Shown one piece after another: positions 11,155 to 40,260 of a stretch of DNA of 40,260 bases. This stretch comes from Candidatus Moraniibacteriota bacterium (GTDB lineage: Bacteria > Patescibacteriota > Minisyncoccia > Moranbacterales > JAPLXC01). The position numbers and the translations under genes are program-made. How positions within the stretch are numbered: the first letter of the stretch is position 1; each line of letters begins with the position of its first letter. Below the pieces are notes generated by a model, which was given only the letters and a program-made list of their open reading frames with translations, made no database searches and had not been told where the DNA came from. Location of the stretch: contig JAPLXC010000003.1 of the NCBI GenBank assembly GCA_026396275.1, forward strand, positions 1 to 40,260. Reading direction: 5' to 3'.

Positions 11155-11273
11155 ATTTACTTACAATAAACAACTGACTACTGACAACTAAAAAATATTT
11201 CAATTTATTGTTGTAAGTCGTATATCGCCCGCCTGCCACTGCGAGGCACGAGCGGGCAGGTAAGTTGTAAGTT
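11155..11273. repeat. Composite gap between PilX-like gene and pilM
   Basis: The AT-rich part holds ACTTACAA (11159-11166) and two inverted copies TTGTAAGT (11211-11218 and 11266-11273), so it belongs to the gap-filling hairpin set. A GC-rich palindromic element at 11228-11260 has been inserted between the two right-hand copies. Confidence 0.55.
11228..11260 (-). repeat. GC-rich palindromic element, intergenic copy
   Basis: Read on the minus strand it starts CCTGCCCGC and ends GCAGGCGGG, the same termini as the 36-base copies inside ileS (38023-38058 and 39578-39613). The middle differs. Base composition contrasts sharply with the AT-rich sequence around it. Confidence 0.75.
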
Positions 11274-34220: not shown

Positions 34221-35837
34221 ATGAAGGAAAAGGTGGAAAATATCATAAAAGAAGCTATTCTGAACTTGCAAAGAGAAAGCAAATTTCTTGATTTTAATAT
34301 GTCGGAGATTGAAGTAAATTATCCCAAAGAAGAAAAGTTCGGCGATTATAGCACTAATGCGGCAATGGTTTTGGCAAAAAAATTAATGAAAAACCCGATA
34401 GAAATAGCTGAAGAAATCAAAAATCAAATACCTGCCTCGCCGGCAGGCGGGTCAAAAATCAAAAATAATAGTTTTGATAAAATTAAGATTGCAAAGCCAG
34501 GGTATATTAATTTTTACCTCTCGGAAAAATATTTACAGGAAAAAGTTGCCGAAATTAATGAGCAAAAAGAAAACTTCGGAAATAGTGAAATTGGCAGGGG
34601 GATAAAAATAAATAATGAATTTATTTCTGCCAATCCGACTGGGCCGCTACATCTTGGAAACGGACGCGGGGGATTTTATGGCGATTTAATTGGCAGAGTT
34701 TGCAAGAAAGCTGGATTTGGAGTTGTGAATGAATATTACAAAAATGATGCCGGCGAACAGGCATTGAAATTCGCTCACAGTTTTCATAAAGATGATCAGG
34801 CTGTTTATATCGGAGAGTATATTGATGAATTACGCAATAAACACAAAGAAATTCTCGATAAATCCATTCAAATGTCTGTGGCTCCATCAGCAGCAGCGGT
34901 CATGGATGATTACATAAATCCTGCTATCGAGAAAATGCAAATAGAATTTGATGTGTTTATATCCGAGAAGTCCTTATATGACGATGGTTTTGTGGATCGT
35001 GCCATTGAAATGTTGAAAAACAAAAAATTAACCTACAAAAAAGATAATGCTTTATGGCTGAAAACGACAGAATTTGGCGATGATAAAGATAGAGTTCTAG
35101 TGAAAAGCAATGGGGAAAAAACATATTTTGCTTCTGACTGCGGATACATTTTAAATAAAATCGAAAGAGGATTCCATAAAATTATTGAAATTTGGGGAGC
35201 GGATCATCATGGATACATGAGACGTTTTGAATCAGCGGCCAGAGCACTCGGATTTACTGGAGAATTAAAATTCATTATCGCTCAGCTTGTAAGATTGGTT
35301 AAGGACGGCAAAGAGGTAAAGATGAGCAAACGCGCGGGTAATGTGGTCTATATTGACGAGCTTATCGATAAAGTCGGGCATGATGTGGCAAGATTTTTCT
35401 TTCTACTGTATTCTCCGGACACGCATATGAATTTTGACTTGGGACTGGCTGAAGAACGTTCAGAAAAAAATCCTGTCTTTTACGTACAATATGCACATGC
35501 CAGAATTTGCAGTATATTAAGAAAATCCGAAATCCTAAATCTGAAATCCGAAAATTTACATTTACTAACTTACGAAAAAGAATTAAGCTTGATTAAAGAA
35601 CTGAATAAATTCCCTGAACTAATTGAAGAAATATCTCAAACTTATGAAGTCCATAAATTGCCTCATTACGCGATAAAAATAGCTGACAAATTTCATGATT
35701 TTTACGAATCCTGCCGGGTTATTGACGAAAAAAATTCAGGACTTTCAGGGGCTCGACTAAATCTGGTAAATGCTGTTAGAATAATATTAGCAGAAACGTT
35801 GCGGCTGATGGGGATAAGCGCGCCCAATAAAATGTGA
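34221..35837 (+). CDS. argS: Arginyl-tRNA synthetase
   Basis: This class I synthetase charges tRNA-Arg, of which two species are encoded at 14.5-14.9 kb. The 538 residues include an N-terminal Add-1 domain (about 1-110), the HIGH motif as HLGN in ANPTGPLHLGNGRGG (about 141), the KMSK loop VKMSKRAGNVV (about 370) and the DALR anticodon domain (about 420-538, ending LRLMGISAPNKM). Two foreign-looking inserts are read through: PASPAGG, encoded by a GC-rich palindromic element (34431-34451) in the Add-1 domain, and a heptamer-encoded KSEILNLKSENL near residue 437. Both lie between conserved blocks. Translation probably begins on a leaderless mRNA. Confidence 0.95.
   Translation: MKEKVENIIKEAILNLQRESKFLDFNMSEIEVNYPKEEKFGDYSTNAAMVLAKKLMKNPIEIAEEIKNQIPASPAGGSKIKNNSFDKIKIAKPGYINFYLSEKYLQEKVAEINEQKENFGNSEIGRGIKINNEFISANPTGPLHLGNGRGGFYGDLIGRVCKKAGFGVVNEYYKNDAGEQALKFAHSFHKDDQAVYIGEYIDELRNKHKEILDKSIQMSVAPSAAAVMDDYINPAIEKMQIEFDVFISEKSLYDDGFVDRAIEMLKNKKLTYKKDNALWLKTTEFGDDKDRVLVKSNGEKTYFASDCGYILNKIERGFHKIIEIWGADHHGYMRRFESAARALGFTGELKFIIAQLVRLVKDGKEVKMSKRAGNVVYIDELIDKVGHDVARFFFLLYSPDTHMNFDLGLAEERSEKNPVFYVQYAHARICSILRKSEILNLKSENLHLLTYEKELSLIKELNKFPELIEEISQTYEVHKLPHYAIKIADKFHDFYESCRVIDEKNSGLSGARLNLVNAVRIILAETLRLMGISAPNKM
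34431..34451 (+). repeat. GC-rich palindromic element, argS copy
   Basis: CCTGCCTCGC followed by CGGCAGGCGGG, a short member of the family ending in GCAGGCGGG. It is read in frame as PASPAGG and is flanked by AAATCAAAAATC words on both sides. Confidence 0.75.
35525..35552 (+). repeat. Four ATCCGAA heptamers inside argS
   Basis: ATCCGAA, ATCCTAA, ATCTGAA, ATCCGAA in direct succession, encoding part of a variable loop just before the anticodon-binding domain. Confidence 0.75.
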
Positions 35838-37089: not shown

Positions 37090-37199
37090 ATCCAAATTTC
37101 AAAGCTCAAATGTCAAATCAAATCCAAAATCCAATGTTTAAATTTTTGGATTTTGCGCTTTGAACTTGATTTGATATTTGAATTTTGGCATTTGGGTTT
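37088..37199. repeat. Large imperfect hairpin of CAAATCC words before ileS
   Basis: The left arm (37088-37121) and right arm (37166-37199) are inverted copies matching at 28 of 34 positions. Both are built from about 7-base words (AAATTTC, AAAGCTC, AAATGTC). It occupies essentially the whole gap before ileS. Confidence 0.8.
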
Positions 37200-37207
37200 T
37201 TAAATTT

Positions 37208-40200
37208 ATGTTTAAAAAAGTCGATCCAAAACAGAGTTTGCCCAAAATGGAAGAAGAAATTTTGAAGTTTTGGGAGGACAATAAAATTTTTGAGAAGTCG
37301 GTGGAGATTCGAAAAAATAACCCCGCCTACGTTTTTTATGACGGGCCGCCTTTTGCTACGGGAATGCCTCACTATGGACATATCCTGACCGGTGTTATAA
37401 AGGATGCCATTCCTCGTTACTGGACGATGAGAGGACGATACGTTGAGCGAAAGTGGGGATGGGATTGTCATGGCTTGCCCATAGAAAATATTGTGGAAAA
37501 GAGCTTGGGTATCAAGAGAAAGAAAGACATTAAAAAGATAGGCATAGACAAGTTTAATGAAACCTGCCGTTCCAAAGTTTCCAAGTACGTTGAGGATTGG
37601 AAATCAGTGATAAAACGGTTGGGAAGATGGGCGGACATGGAAAATAGTTACAAAACCATGGACTTGAGTTTCATGGAGTCCGTGTGGTGGGTTTTCAAGG
37701 AACTTTGGAACAAAGGATTAATCTATGAGGGTTACCGCTCGATGTATATCTGCACGCGTTGTGAGACCACTCTTTCCCAGCAGGACGTTGCGGATGGATA
37801 TAAAGATATAAAAGACCTTGCGGTCACGGTTAAGTTTAAATTAGAAAACGAGCCGGATACATATTTACTCGTCTGGACAACTACACCTTGGACGCTTATT
37901 GGAAACACAGCGGTGGTGGTTGGAGAAAAAATTGCTTATGTGAAAGTAAAATTGAAATGTCATTCCGGACTTCCTACCCGTCCGGCAGGCGGGGATCCGG
38001 AATCTAATAAGATCCTGAAACACCTGCCCGCATCGCTATGCGAAGCATTGCAGGCGGGAGTTCAGGATGACAATTATTATATCTTGGCTAAAGAAAGAAT
38101 AAAGGAAGTTCTAAAAGATAAAGAATTTGAAGTGATTAACGAATTTAAAGGCAGAGATTTAATTGGCAAAGAATATAAACCACTTTTTGACTATTATATT
38201 AATAAAGGTTTAGATAATGAAGAAAATGGGTGGAAAGTTTACCCGGCTGACTTTTTGAATACTGAAGAGGGAACGGGAATAGTGCATATAGCACCAGCTT
38301 TTGGAGAAGACGACCTGGATTTAAGCTATAAGCATAATTTGCCCTTTATTCAGCATGTTGGCATGGATGGATTGATCAAAAAAGAAGCCGTTGATTTTGC
38401 CGGAATGAGCGTGAAACCAATGGAGAATCATCAAAAAACCGATATTGAGGTCATTAAATTTCTGGAAAAAAACAATTGTCTTTTTTCCAAGGAGGAATAT
38501 TTGCATAGTTATCCCCATTGCTGGAGATGTGAAACTCCTCTTATTAACTATGCTACTTCCTCTTGGTTTGTGAATGTCACAAAGATTAAAGGAAAGGCAT
38601 TGGAGCTGGCCAAGGATATTAACTGGGTGCCAAGTCATATAAAGGAAGGAAGATTCGGCAATTGGCTGGAAGGAGCGCGTGACTGGTCGATTAGTCGGCA
38701 GAGATTTTGGGCCTCGGTTATTCCTATCTGGAAGTGCAACGGTCAAACCGAAATCAAAAATCAAAAATCAAAAATCAAAGGTGAGTGCGAAAATATAAAA
38801 GTTATAGGGTCAGTGAAAGAATTAGAAAAACTTAGCGGACAAAAAGTTACAGATTTGCATAAACACATTATCGACAAAATTATATTTAAATGCGAAAAGT
38901 GTGGTGGAATAATGAAAAGAATTCCTGATGTTCTGGATACCTGGTTTGATTCAGGATCAATGCCTTATGCTCAAGTACACTATCCTTTTGAAAACAAGGA
39001 AAAATTCGAAGCCAATTTTCCAGCTGAATTTATTGGCGAAGGCATAGATCAAACGCGTGCCTGGTTTTATTATCTTCATATTATTTCCACTGCGATAAAA
39101 GAAAAACCAGCTTATAAGAATGTTGTCGTAAACGGCATAGTTTTGGATGAGCAAGGAAAAAAAATGTCAAAGCGCCTTCAAAATTATCCTGATCCAGCTG
39201 AAATTTTTCGAAAATACGGCGCTGACATTCTTCGATTTTATCTTTTGTCTTCTCCGGTAATGGCAGCCGAGGATCTTAGCCTCAAAGAGACAGAAATGAC
39301 GGAATTTTATCGCGGAATGTTTAGAATGCTCTGGAATTCTTATTATTTCTTTGTAATGTACGCCAATGTTGATAAATTTAAACCAACAGCACGCAGTCAA
39401 CAGCCAACAACTAACCTGCTGGACAAATGGATAATTTCGGAATTAAACGTTCTTATTCGCGAAGTGAACGAGAATATGGAAAAGTATGAACTTAATCGGA
39501 CCGCTCGGCTCTTTCCAAAATTCGTCGACAATCTTTCCAACTGGTACATCCGCCGCAGCCGAAGAAGATTTTGGAAACCTGCCCGCATCGCTACACGAAG
39601 CGTTGCAGGCGGGTCGGAAAGCGATGAGGATAAAAAACTGGCTTATGAAACATTGCATTATGTATTGGTAACGCTTGCGAAACTAATGGCGCCATTTACG
39701 CCGTTTATCGCGGAGGAAATTTACAAGAATTTAACCGGTGAAGAGTCAGTGCATCTGGCTGATTTTCCAATAGCGGATGAGAAATTGATTGATAAGAAGT
39801 TAAATAGAAATATGAACGACTTACGAGAAATAATTAGTTTGGGATTACAGGAACGTGCAAGGCATGGTAAAAAAGTGCGTCAACCATTAGCAAAAGTTAT
39901 TCTCGGACAAAAATTTAAAGGGGTTTTTGATGAACTTATAAATAAACTGGAGTGGAGTCAAATTTTGACAGAAGAGCTCAACGTTAAAGGAGCTGAATTA
40001 GGAACGGCGGTAGAAACACTAGCACTTGATACTAGAATTACTAAAGATCTCAAACTTGAAGGCCAAGCCCGCGAAATTATCCGCCATATTCAAGAGATGA
40101 GAAAAGAAGCGGGTTATGAAGTTGACAATCATATTAAAGTGGGCTATATTGGGGCATCGGAGGTCTTTGAAAAATTTGGCGAAATGATTGGCAAAGAAGT

Positions 40201-40260
40201 GCTGGCGGACGAATTAAAATCAGAAAAATTAGAAAAGTTTGATCTCGAAAAAGAGTTTGA
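37208..40260 (+). CDS. ileS: Isoleucyl-tRNA synthetase (3' end beyond the window)
   Basis: This class I synthetase charges tRNA-Ile; 1017 codons are visible and the frame is open at the window end. The HIGH motif is HYGH in GMPHYGHIL (about residue 57), the editing domain is at about 190-400, and the KMSKS loop reads KKMSKRLQNYPDP (about 655). The sequence resembles type 2 (eukaryote-like) IleRS. A zinc knuckle has Cys510 and Cys527 as its first half and CEKC as its second. Three inserts encoded by repeats interrupt it: about residues 251-287 (double palindromic), 513-525 (heptamers, between the two zinc Cys) and 791-802 (GC-rich element). All keep the frame open, so the gene appears functional. 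Confidence 0.93.
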   Translation, partial: MFKKVDPKQSLPKMEEEILKFWEDNKIFEKSVEIRKNNPAYVFYDGPPFATGMPHYGHILTGVIKDAIPRYWTMRGRYVERKWGWDCHGLPIENIVEKSLGIKRKKDIKKIGIDKFNETCRSKVSKYVEDWKSVIKRLGRWADMENSYKTMDLSFMESVWWVFKELWNKGLIYEGYRSMYICTRCETTLSQQDVADGYKDIKDLAVTVKFKLENEPDTYLLVWTTTPWTLIGNTAVVVGEKIAYVKVKLKCHSGLPTRPAGGDPESNKILKHLPASLCEALQAGVQDDNYYILAKERIKEVLKDKEFEVINEFKGRDLIGKEYKPLFDYYINKGLDNEENGWKVYPADFLNTEEGTGIVHIAPAFGEDDLDLSYKHNLPFIQHVGMDGLIKKEAVDFAGMSVKPMENHQKTDIEVIKFLEKNNCLFSKEEYLHSYPHCWRCETPLINYATSSWFVNVTKIKGKALELAKDINWVPSHIKEGRFGNWLEGARDWSISRQRFWASVIPIWKCNGQTEIKNQKSKIKGECENIKVIGSVKELEKLSGQKVTDLHKHIIDKIIFKCEKCGGIMKRIPDVLDTWFDSGSMPYAQVHYPFENKEKFEANFPAEFIGEGIDQTRAWFYYLHIISTAIKEKPAYKNVVVNGIVLDEQGKKMSKRLQNYPDPAEIFRKYGADILRFYLLSSPVMAAEDLSLKETEMTEFYRGMFRMLWNSYYFFVMYANVDKFKPTARSQQPTTNLLDKWIISELNVLIREVNENMEKYELNRTARLFPKFVDNLSNWYIRRSRRRFWKPARIATRSVAGGSESDEDKKLAYETLHYVLVTLAKLMAPFTPFIAEEIYKNLTGEESVHLADFPIADEKLIDKKLNRNMNDLREIISLGLQERARHGKKVRQPLAKVILGQKFKGVFDELINKLEWSQILTEELNVKGAELGTAVETLALDTRITKDLKLEGQAREIIRHIQEMRKEAGYEVDNHIKVGYIGASEVFEKFGEMIGKEVLADELKSEKLEKFDLEKEF
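37961..38068 (+). repeat. Nested palindromic insert in ileS editing domain
   Basis: Two outer hairpins, ATTCCGGA/TCCGGAAT and ATCCTGAA/TTCAGGAT, each carry a GC-rich element in the loop: CCTACCCG...GGCAGGCGGG (37973-37993) and the 36-base CCTGCCCGC...GCAGGCGGG (38023-38058). The segment codes for about 36 extra residues between YVKVKLK and DDNYYILA. Confidence 0.8.
38741..38780 (+). repeat. TCAAAAA heptamer array in ileS zinc knuckle
   Basis: About four units of AAATCAA/TCAAAAA encode KNQKSKIK between Cys510 and Cys527, widening a knuckle that is normally C-x2-C or C-x3-C. Confidence 0.8.
39578..39613 (+). repeat. GC-rich palindromic element, second long ileS copy
   Basis: This 36-base copy differs from the one at 38023-38058 at only three positions, all transitions. 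Here it is read in another frame, as PARIATRSVAGG. Confidence 0.85.

Follow-up and report, generated by a model that had tools for sequence, protein, structure and literature searches.

Short palindromes in bacterial protein genes are best known from Rickettsia and its relatives. Two of the Rickettsia palindromic elements (RPE), RPE-4 and RPE-6, belong with dRS3 of Neisseria to the CGTC/TGTC-tagged REPs, which have been listed from five phyla (Di Nocera et al., 2013; PMC3733652). Nesting has been described as well, REP dimers being found inside other palindromes in the cases of Anabaena GTAG-15, T. roseum GTAG-23 and H. neapolitanus CGTC-1 (PMC3733652). REP palindromes are also targeted by insertion sequences (PMC1525189), and in REP/Y1 systems TnpA-REP cuts single-stranded DNA next to a hairpin that carries a tag (PMC8266576). 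The present work concerns a locus in which two families of non-autonomous mobile palindromes appear to be stacked within ileS, a reading to which we assign a probability of about 0.8.

The window, i.e., the whole stretch of 40,260 nt analyzed here, is contig C3 of a genome of 810 kb (22 contigs, 99.7% complete), which was surveyed through pattern searches and fetched stretches. The host gene, ileS (isoleucyl-tRNA synthetase, 37178..40258, + strand), was recognized from the ORF list, from the Pfam domain tRNA-synt_1 (E 5.5e-139) and from solved IleRS chains. It probably starts at ATG 37208 rather than at TTG 37178, and it runs off the contig end, no 3' end lying within the window. A variant ileS 3' end, with 88% protein identity, opens contig C4 (G000:C4:1-192, L101) and matches the last bases of the window (40070-40258), an overlap which probably reflects an assembly break combined with strain variation.

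The compound insert in ileS (37958..38072, + strand) reads CHSGLPTRPAGGDPESNKILKHLPASLCEALQAGVQDD and measures 115 nt, or 58 nt once its two GC-rich elements, hereafter GC elements, are removed. Supported by the sequence itself, by empty copies in the genome and by residues absent in relatives, it comprises a TGTC-tagged REP dimer and both GC elements, arranged as TGTCAT-TCCGGA-CTT^GA-TCCGGA-ATCTAATAAGAT-CCTGAA-ACA^AG-TTCAGG-ATGACA, where carets mark the GC elements, exactly in the loops. GC element 1 (37973..37993, + strand, 21 nt, CCTACCCGTCCGGCAGGCGGG) occupies loop CTT^GA of hairpin 1, with a near-identical filled half at G000:C18:18559 (L099), and GC element 2 (38023..38058, + strand, 36 nt, CCTGCCCGCATCGCTATGCGAAGCATTGCAGGCGGG) occupies loop ACA^AG of hairpin 2, with an identical filled half in recG (G000:C7:28377). 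DNA folding yielded z = -5.1 for the 58-nt outer element without its GC parts, and the same value for the filled insert. The two hairpins and the two inner elements lie where an earlier note on this DNA had placed them; the limits it gave, 37961-38068 (108 nt), designated the right site but missed the TGTC...GACA ends. Its description of two palindrome families, one in the loops of the other and in frame in ileS, is supported by the abundance of empty outer copies and solo inner copies found on searching the genome, and by relatives' ileS, where the inserted residues are absent at this first site. The successive insertion that it proposed is likewise suggested by empty versus filled copies, with the reservation that the half filled by the 36-mer occurs twice in the genome (ileS and recG), so that the compound itself may have been copied. 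No intermediate allele, empty or half-filled, of this site was found among relatives' ileS. The filled dimers of ileS (115 nt) and recG (97 nt, L005) are both 1 mod 3 long yet in frame, which implies that integration must have added two bases or removed one; no clear target duplication was found at either. In the homology alignment to solved IleRS chains, the first insert maps to the turn that links 'yvkv' to 'yyilake', and the ileS inserts in general are predicted to fall in loops.

The outer element closely resembles the CGTC/TGTC-tagged REPs. It bears TGTC at 37958-37961 and the complement GACA at 38069-38072, GTCAT being present in all pattern copies. Its 8-bp stems and 5-nt loop agree with the stem of 8-9 bp beginning with AT and the loop of 4-5 nt of such REPs, and it is found, like them, in multiple copies and as dimers, here with the tags at the outer ends. 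A strict pattern for the half-element retrieved 22 exact copies in the genome versus 0 for the control, and was present in 53 of the 113 genomes of the order, with no control hits. Empty-loop copies with the same plan are numerous in the genome (e.g., TGTCATCCTGAACTTGATTCAGGATCTATTTAGATTCCGGATCAAGTCCGGAATGACA), many of them 58-nt dimers. The stems vary between copies yet pair in 97.7% of cells, with a covariation of 0.480 vs. 0.174 after shuffling; in some rows of this alignment, the T and CT at the flanks were filled from the consensus and, lying outside the stem, were not counted. These features support the assignment of the outer element, on sequence grounds, to the CGTC/TGTC-tagged REPs, for which this would be a new host group. 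The earlier note's remark that the sequence is another one than in the Rickettsia elements needs refinement here, since the outer element shares its REP features with RPE-4 and RPE-6.

The inner element forms a second family. Within the window, CCTGCCCGC occurs three times vs. 0.14 expected, and genome-wide GCAGGCGGG was found 33 times vs. 3 for the reversed control. The two-ended pattern CCTGCC...GCAGGCGGG is present in 14 copies in this genome and in 305 copies across the order, in 64 of 113 genomes, against about 6 reversed-pattern hits. The most common lengths are 36, 21, 39 and 33 nt, within a range of 21-43 nt. One intergenic element in the window (11228..11260, - strand, 33 nt, CCTGCCCGCTCGTGCCTCGCAGTGGCAGGCGGG) has the same or near-identical 33-mers in Desulfobacterales records. 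More broadly, identical or near-identical 32-, 33- and 36-mers were retrieved from Verrucomicrobia, Lentisphaerae, Desulfobacterales and other records, the 32- and 36-mers recurring identically in other phyla, and named Patescibacteria records carry GC elements too, which, together with the size and gene content of the genome, points to a Patescibacterium as its likely owner. In one stretch (L224, match 1501-1520), a 20-nt GC element immediately precedes GGAAAGTCCGAGCACC, which resembles RNase P RNA and has no Rfam match at gathering score.

Two competing folds are available to the 36-mer: one leaves the 5' CCTG unpaired and forms the stem CCCGC/GCGGG, while the other forms a CCTGC/GCAGG stem, with CGGG unpaired. 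Stem covariation in the 36-mer amounted to 0.160 vs. 0.070 shuffled, with columns 16 and 26 of the inner stem covarying as A-T (9), T-A (8) and G-C (3). Such compensatory changes convert PARNATHSVAGG to PARNASHSDAGG or PARNAAHSAAGG; as stem covariation alters the encoded peptide, coding copies themselves reveal that the hairpin is constrained. A literature search, run without subscription papers and hence not proof of absence, found no such elements in Patescibacteria/CPR, and the inner family appears to be undescribed in the literature searched, as do its occurrence in frame within genes and its nesting in REP loops. A broader view, which we advance tentatively and at somewhat less than even odds, is that the CCTGCC...GCAGGCGGG palindromes constitute an undescribed REP-like mobile superfamily that crosses phyla, has older palindromes among its landing sites, is shaped for harmless translation (length, stop-free main frame, polar peptide PARNASHSDAGG) and lives in essential genes of gene-dense genomes.

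Insertion in frame was observed in several genes. A third GC element in ileS (39578..39613, + strand, 36 nt) lies outside any outer palindrome and adds PARIATRSVAGG between RRRFWK and SESDEDK; exactly these 12 residues are missing in 27 of 28 relatives, and the remaining one, G006, carries 12 different residues. Forty residues beyond (window ~39750), the loop between KNLTGEE and SVHL is uninterrupted in the window gene and receives PARNATHSVAGG (12 residues) in G002, PARNASRSDAGG in G016 and the outer element's CHSGLDPESKN in G056. This IleRS loop holds different palindromes in different genera, others including SPYPNPLPEGEG. The filled half in recG (G000:C7:28377, L005) is in frame, as in ileS, and the recG insert takes the place of a short segment whose flanking residues align to 453 and 465 of a solved RecG chain. 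In argS (34221-35837), confirmed by Pfam Arg_tRNA_synt_N and DALR_1, a 21-nt GC element (34431..34451, + strand) reads PASPAGG. Further in-frame hosts in the genome are proS, rpmE (L31), yebC, a capA-like gene and an ATP-grasp gene, these five being named by eye from translated ORFs. In a wider sample, lengths divisible by three were found for 48 of 51 genic GC copies vs. 43 of 69 elsewhere (p = 3e-5), a comparison which is partly circular, as "genic" denotes an ORF running through the element and an out-of-frame insert breaks such an ORF. The element is read from the coding strand in codon phase 0 (PARNASHSDAGG-type) in 35 of 48 genic copies, vs. 9.9 expected from the non-genic target profile, and most of its other frames are also usually stop-free. 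This skew is most simply read as the result of selection acting on the peptide; alternatively, insertion may be biased in genes specifically. The GC element corresponds to the description of RPE as in-frame palindromic inserts in protein genes.

Nesting was far more frequent than chance would allow. Of some 15 GC elements in the genome, four lie inside outer-element loops (two in ileS, one in recG and one at C18:18559), vs. about 0.002 expected (15 x 110/810038), an expectation that counts 22 exact half-elements with 5-nt loops and that imperfect halves would raise a few fold; the four cases are moreover partly dependent, as they comprise the 36-mer half twice (ileS, recG) and the 21-mer half twice (ileS, L099). 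Filled loops of strong palindromes were also seen elsewhere, i.e., in L272 (a genome of another family, with the same loop filled as in ileS), L241/L276, L221, L229, L212 and L109, a Desulfobacteraceae record in which the filled loop is REP-like. Thirteen of 197 GC junctions fell in a helix of at least 7 bp vs. 2.6% of shifted controls (p = 0.003), and an earlier round of this test had given 9 of 129 junctions with a stem of at least 7 vs. 1.3% at random. Weak hairpins displayed no excess over controls among the 197 junctions. General targeting of hairpin loops was rejected, the enrichment being restricted to strong palindromes in both tests; GC elements land repeatedly in the loops of strong palindromes, but such loops account for a minor share of their sites.

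Other settings were noted in passing. Partial tRNA copies just upstream of intact tRNAs carry a GC element in the D loop (L020:1440-1641, L111:4480-4736 and L118:5200-5478), with a second one in the anticodon loop in L118; insertion within intact tRNAs was discarded, the Rfam hits being the intact tRNAs that adjoin these partial copies. AT-rich TCAAAAATC repeats are read in frame in ileS, argS and proS (window 38751-38780 and 34440-34475; proS in L024), and in argS and proS a 21-nt GC element lies within such a repeat. The ATP-grasp gene (G000:C2:15603-15644, L001) contains a 42-nt GC element in whose loop there is seemingly a 15-nt palindrome, CCTACCCCGGACAGG, which would seem to be a third level of nesting.

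From a mechanistic point of view, comparison of G002 with the window revealed exact GC element ends without target duplication (GAA^TCG in G002, GAG TCA in the window), and no canonical 4-nt target was seen beside the element. In its exact ends, in the lack of duplication and in a hairpin that leaves 4 nt unpaired at one end, the element recalls REP/Y1 systems. Y1 genes were detected in 59 of the 113 genomes of the order and co-occurred with the GC family, being present in 43 of the 64 genomes that have it and in 16 of the 49 that lack it (odds ratio 4.2, p = 3e-4); their presence also correlated with GC copy number (rho 0.41). However, no GC element was present within about 1.5 kb at 31 of 32 Y1 loci, and no Y1 gene was detected in 21 GC-positive genomes, including G082 with 20 copies. 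A dedicated RAYT was ruled out for the GC element, as the Y1 loci lack flanking GC elements. Two Y1/RAYT-like genes were located in the present genome (L066:1171-1970, G000:C18 near 3480; L067:1234-1986, G000:C5 near 68358), each ORF with its own palindromes around and inside it, GAGGACCGTCCTCG in one and TTTGGAGGTTGAACCTCCAAA in the other. Given co-occurrence without flanking, and positive genomes without Y1, mobilization in trans by a Y1 (IS200/RAYT-like) transposase via single-stranded DNA may be regarded as plausible, at slightly under an even chance, and its main rival is copying without any transposase.

In this rival, palindromes would spread through template switching during replication or recombination between repeats. 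It fits the high-copy genomes devoid of Y1 and the Y1 genes that do not flank elements, and template-directed correction of imperfect palindromes could generate the compensatory stem changes; but an enzymatic process is suggested by the precision with which the ends recur, by the exact insertion of 36 nt at sites unrelated to one another and by identical elements in different phyla, and Y1 presence correlates with copy number. We consider this rival rather unlikely. We are equally doubtful that the filled dimer is one composite moving as a unit, the GC part being a loop variant of the outer REP. The halves filled twice by the 36-mer, with the same loop junction, and twice by the 21-mer speak for such a unit, whereas most GC elements stand alone, be it in genes, in tRNA-like copies, in intergenic repeats or within other palindromes, most outer copies have empty loops, and the ileS dimer is unlike its recG counterpart in the first half and in stem bases. 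That inner and outer elements always occur together is already contradicted by these empty and solo copies. A widespread composite was excluded, as the 36-mer compound half, sought in 380 genomes of the phylum, was found in the present one only, twice.

Two further explanations concern the nature of the sequences themselves. The region of the first ileS site varies in length among relatives, as it would if the 36-38 extra residues were an ordinary variable loop of IleRS with palindromic DNA by accident; the same DNA nevertheless occurs in recG and between genes, with fold and covariation at the nucleic-acid level, which leaves this explanation hardly any credit. The GC element, palindromic and found inside genes, might also be a DNA-uptake sequence or another short functional signal. 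Known uptake sequences number hundreds to thousands of copies. A genome with the GC element contains from a few up to 26 copies of it, and 49 of the 113 genomes of the order have none, so that an uptake sequence is ruled out on copy number and a signal of this kind is very improbable. We favor two stacked mobile families. According to this scenario, an older TGTC-tagged REP dimer would have entered, in frame, a surface turn of the IleRS editing domain, and GC elements of 21 and 36 nt would then have filled both hairpin loops, by insertion or through duplication of a half that was filled beforehand, the latter being considered because the 36-mer half is also present in recG. The GC element inserts exactly, end to end, without visible target duplication; it may move through single-stranded DNA under catalysis in trans by a Y1 transposase, and would survive in genes through common lengths that are multiples of three and a main frame encoding a small, polar, stop-free peptide.

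Here, in an order that probably belongs to the Patescibacteria, an apparently undescribed family enters protein genes in many bacterial families, as the palindromes of Rickettsia do in theirs. Its presence inside another palindrome family allows insertions to be ordered in time, compensatory changes in coding copies allow constraint on the DNA to be told apart from constraint on the protein, and the frame bias opens a direct test of selection on the peptide. Annotators who meet 12-residue PARNASHSDAGG-like stretches in these proteins should take them as likely mobile DNA rather than as protein function.

Compared with known systems, the GC elements recall RPE as palindromic DNA in frame in housekeeping genes, but they are shorter (21-43 nt) and apparently unrelated in sequence, with ends and length unlike those described (PMC3733652); they also extend to many families and other phyla, with a strong bias to one reading frame. 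With the GTAG REPs and their RAYT/TnpA-REP they share a short, imperfectly paired hairpin in which four terminal nucleotides stay unpaired (CCTG in one fold, CGGG in the other) and a setting where Y1 genes are common in the order. However, the GTAG tag is absent, the ends being CCTGCC and GCAGGCGGG, and the Y1 genes are seen without flanking GC family, two of them, in this genome, with different palindromes of their own. In contrast with insertion sequences that target REPs (PMC1525189), the incoming element in ileS is a palindrome of 21-36 nt without a gene. The nested REP dimers (PMC3733652) are likewise palindromes within palindromes, but there the REP is the inner partner, whereas in ileS the TGTC REP encloses the other palindromes and the whole lies in frame in a gene. 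The outer element shares with CGTC/TGTC-tagged REPs (PMC3733652) the 4-nt TGTC tag, the 8-bp stem starting with AT, the 5-nt loop, dimers with unlike stems and an occasional location within genes, including those of tRNA synthetases. It differs from them by its host, Patescibacteria not being among their five phyla, and by loops which, in the present genome, are in some cases filled by a second palindrome.
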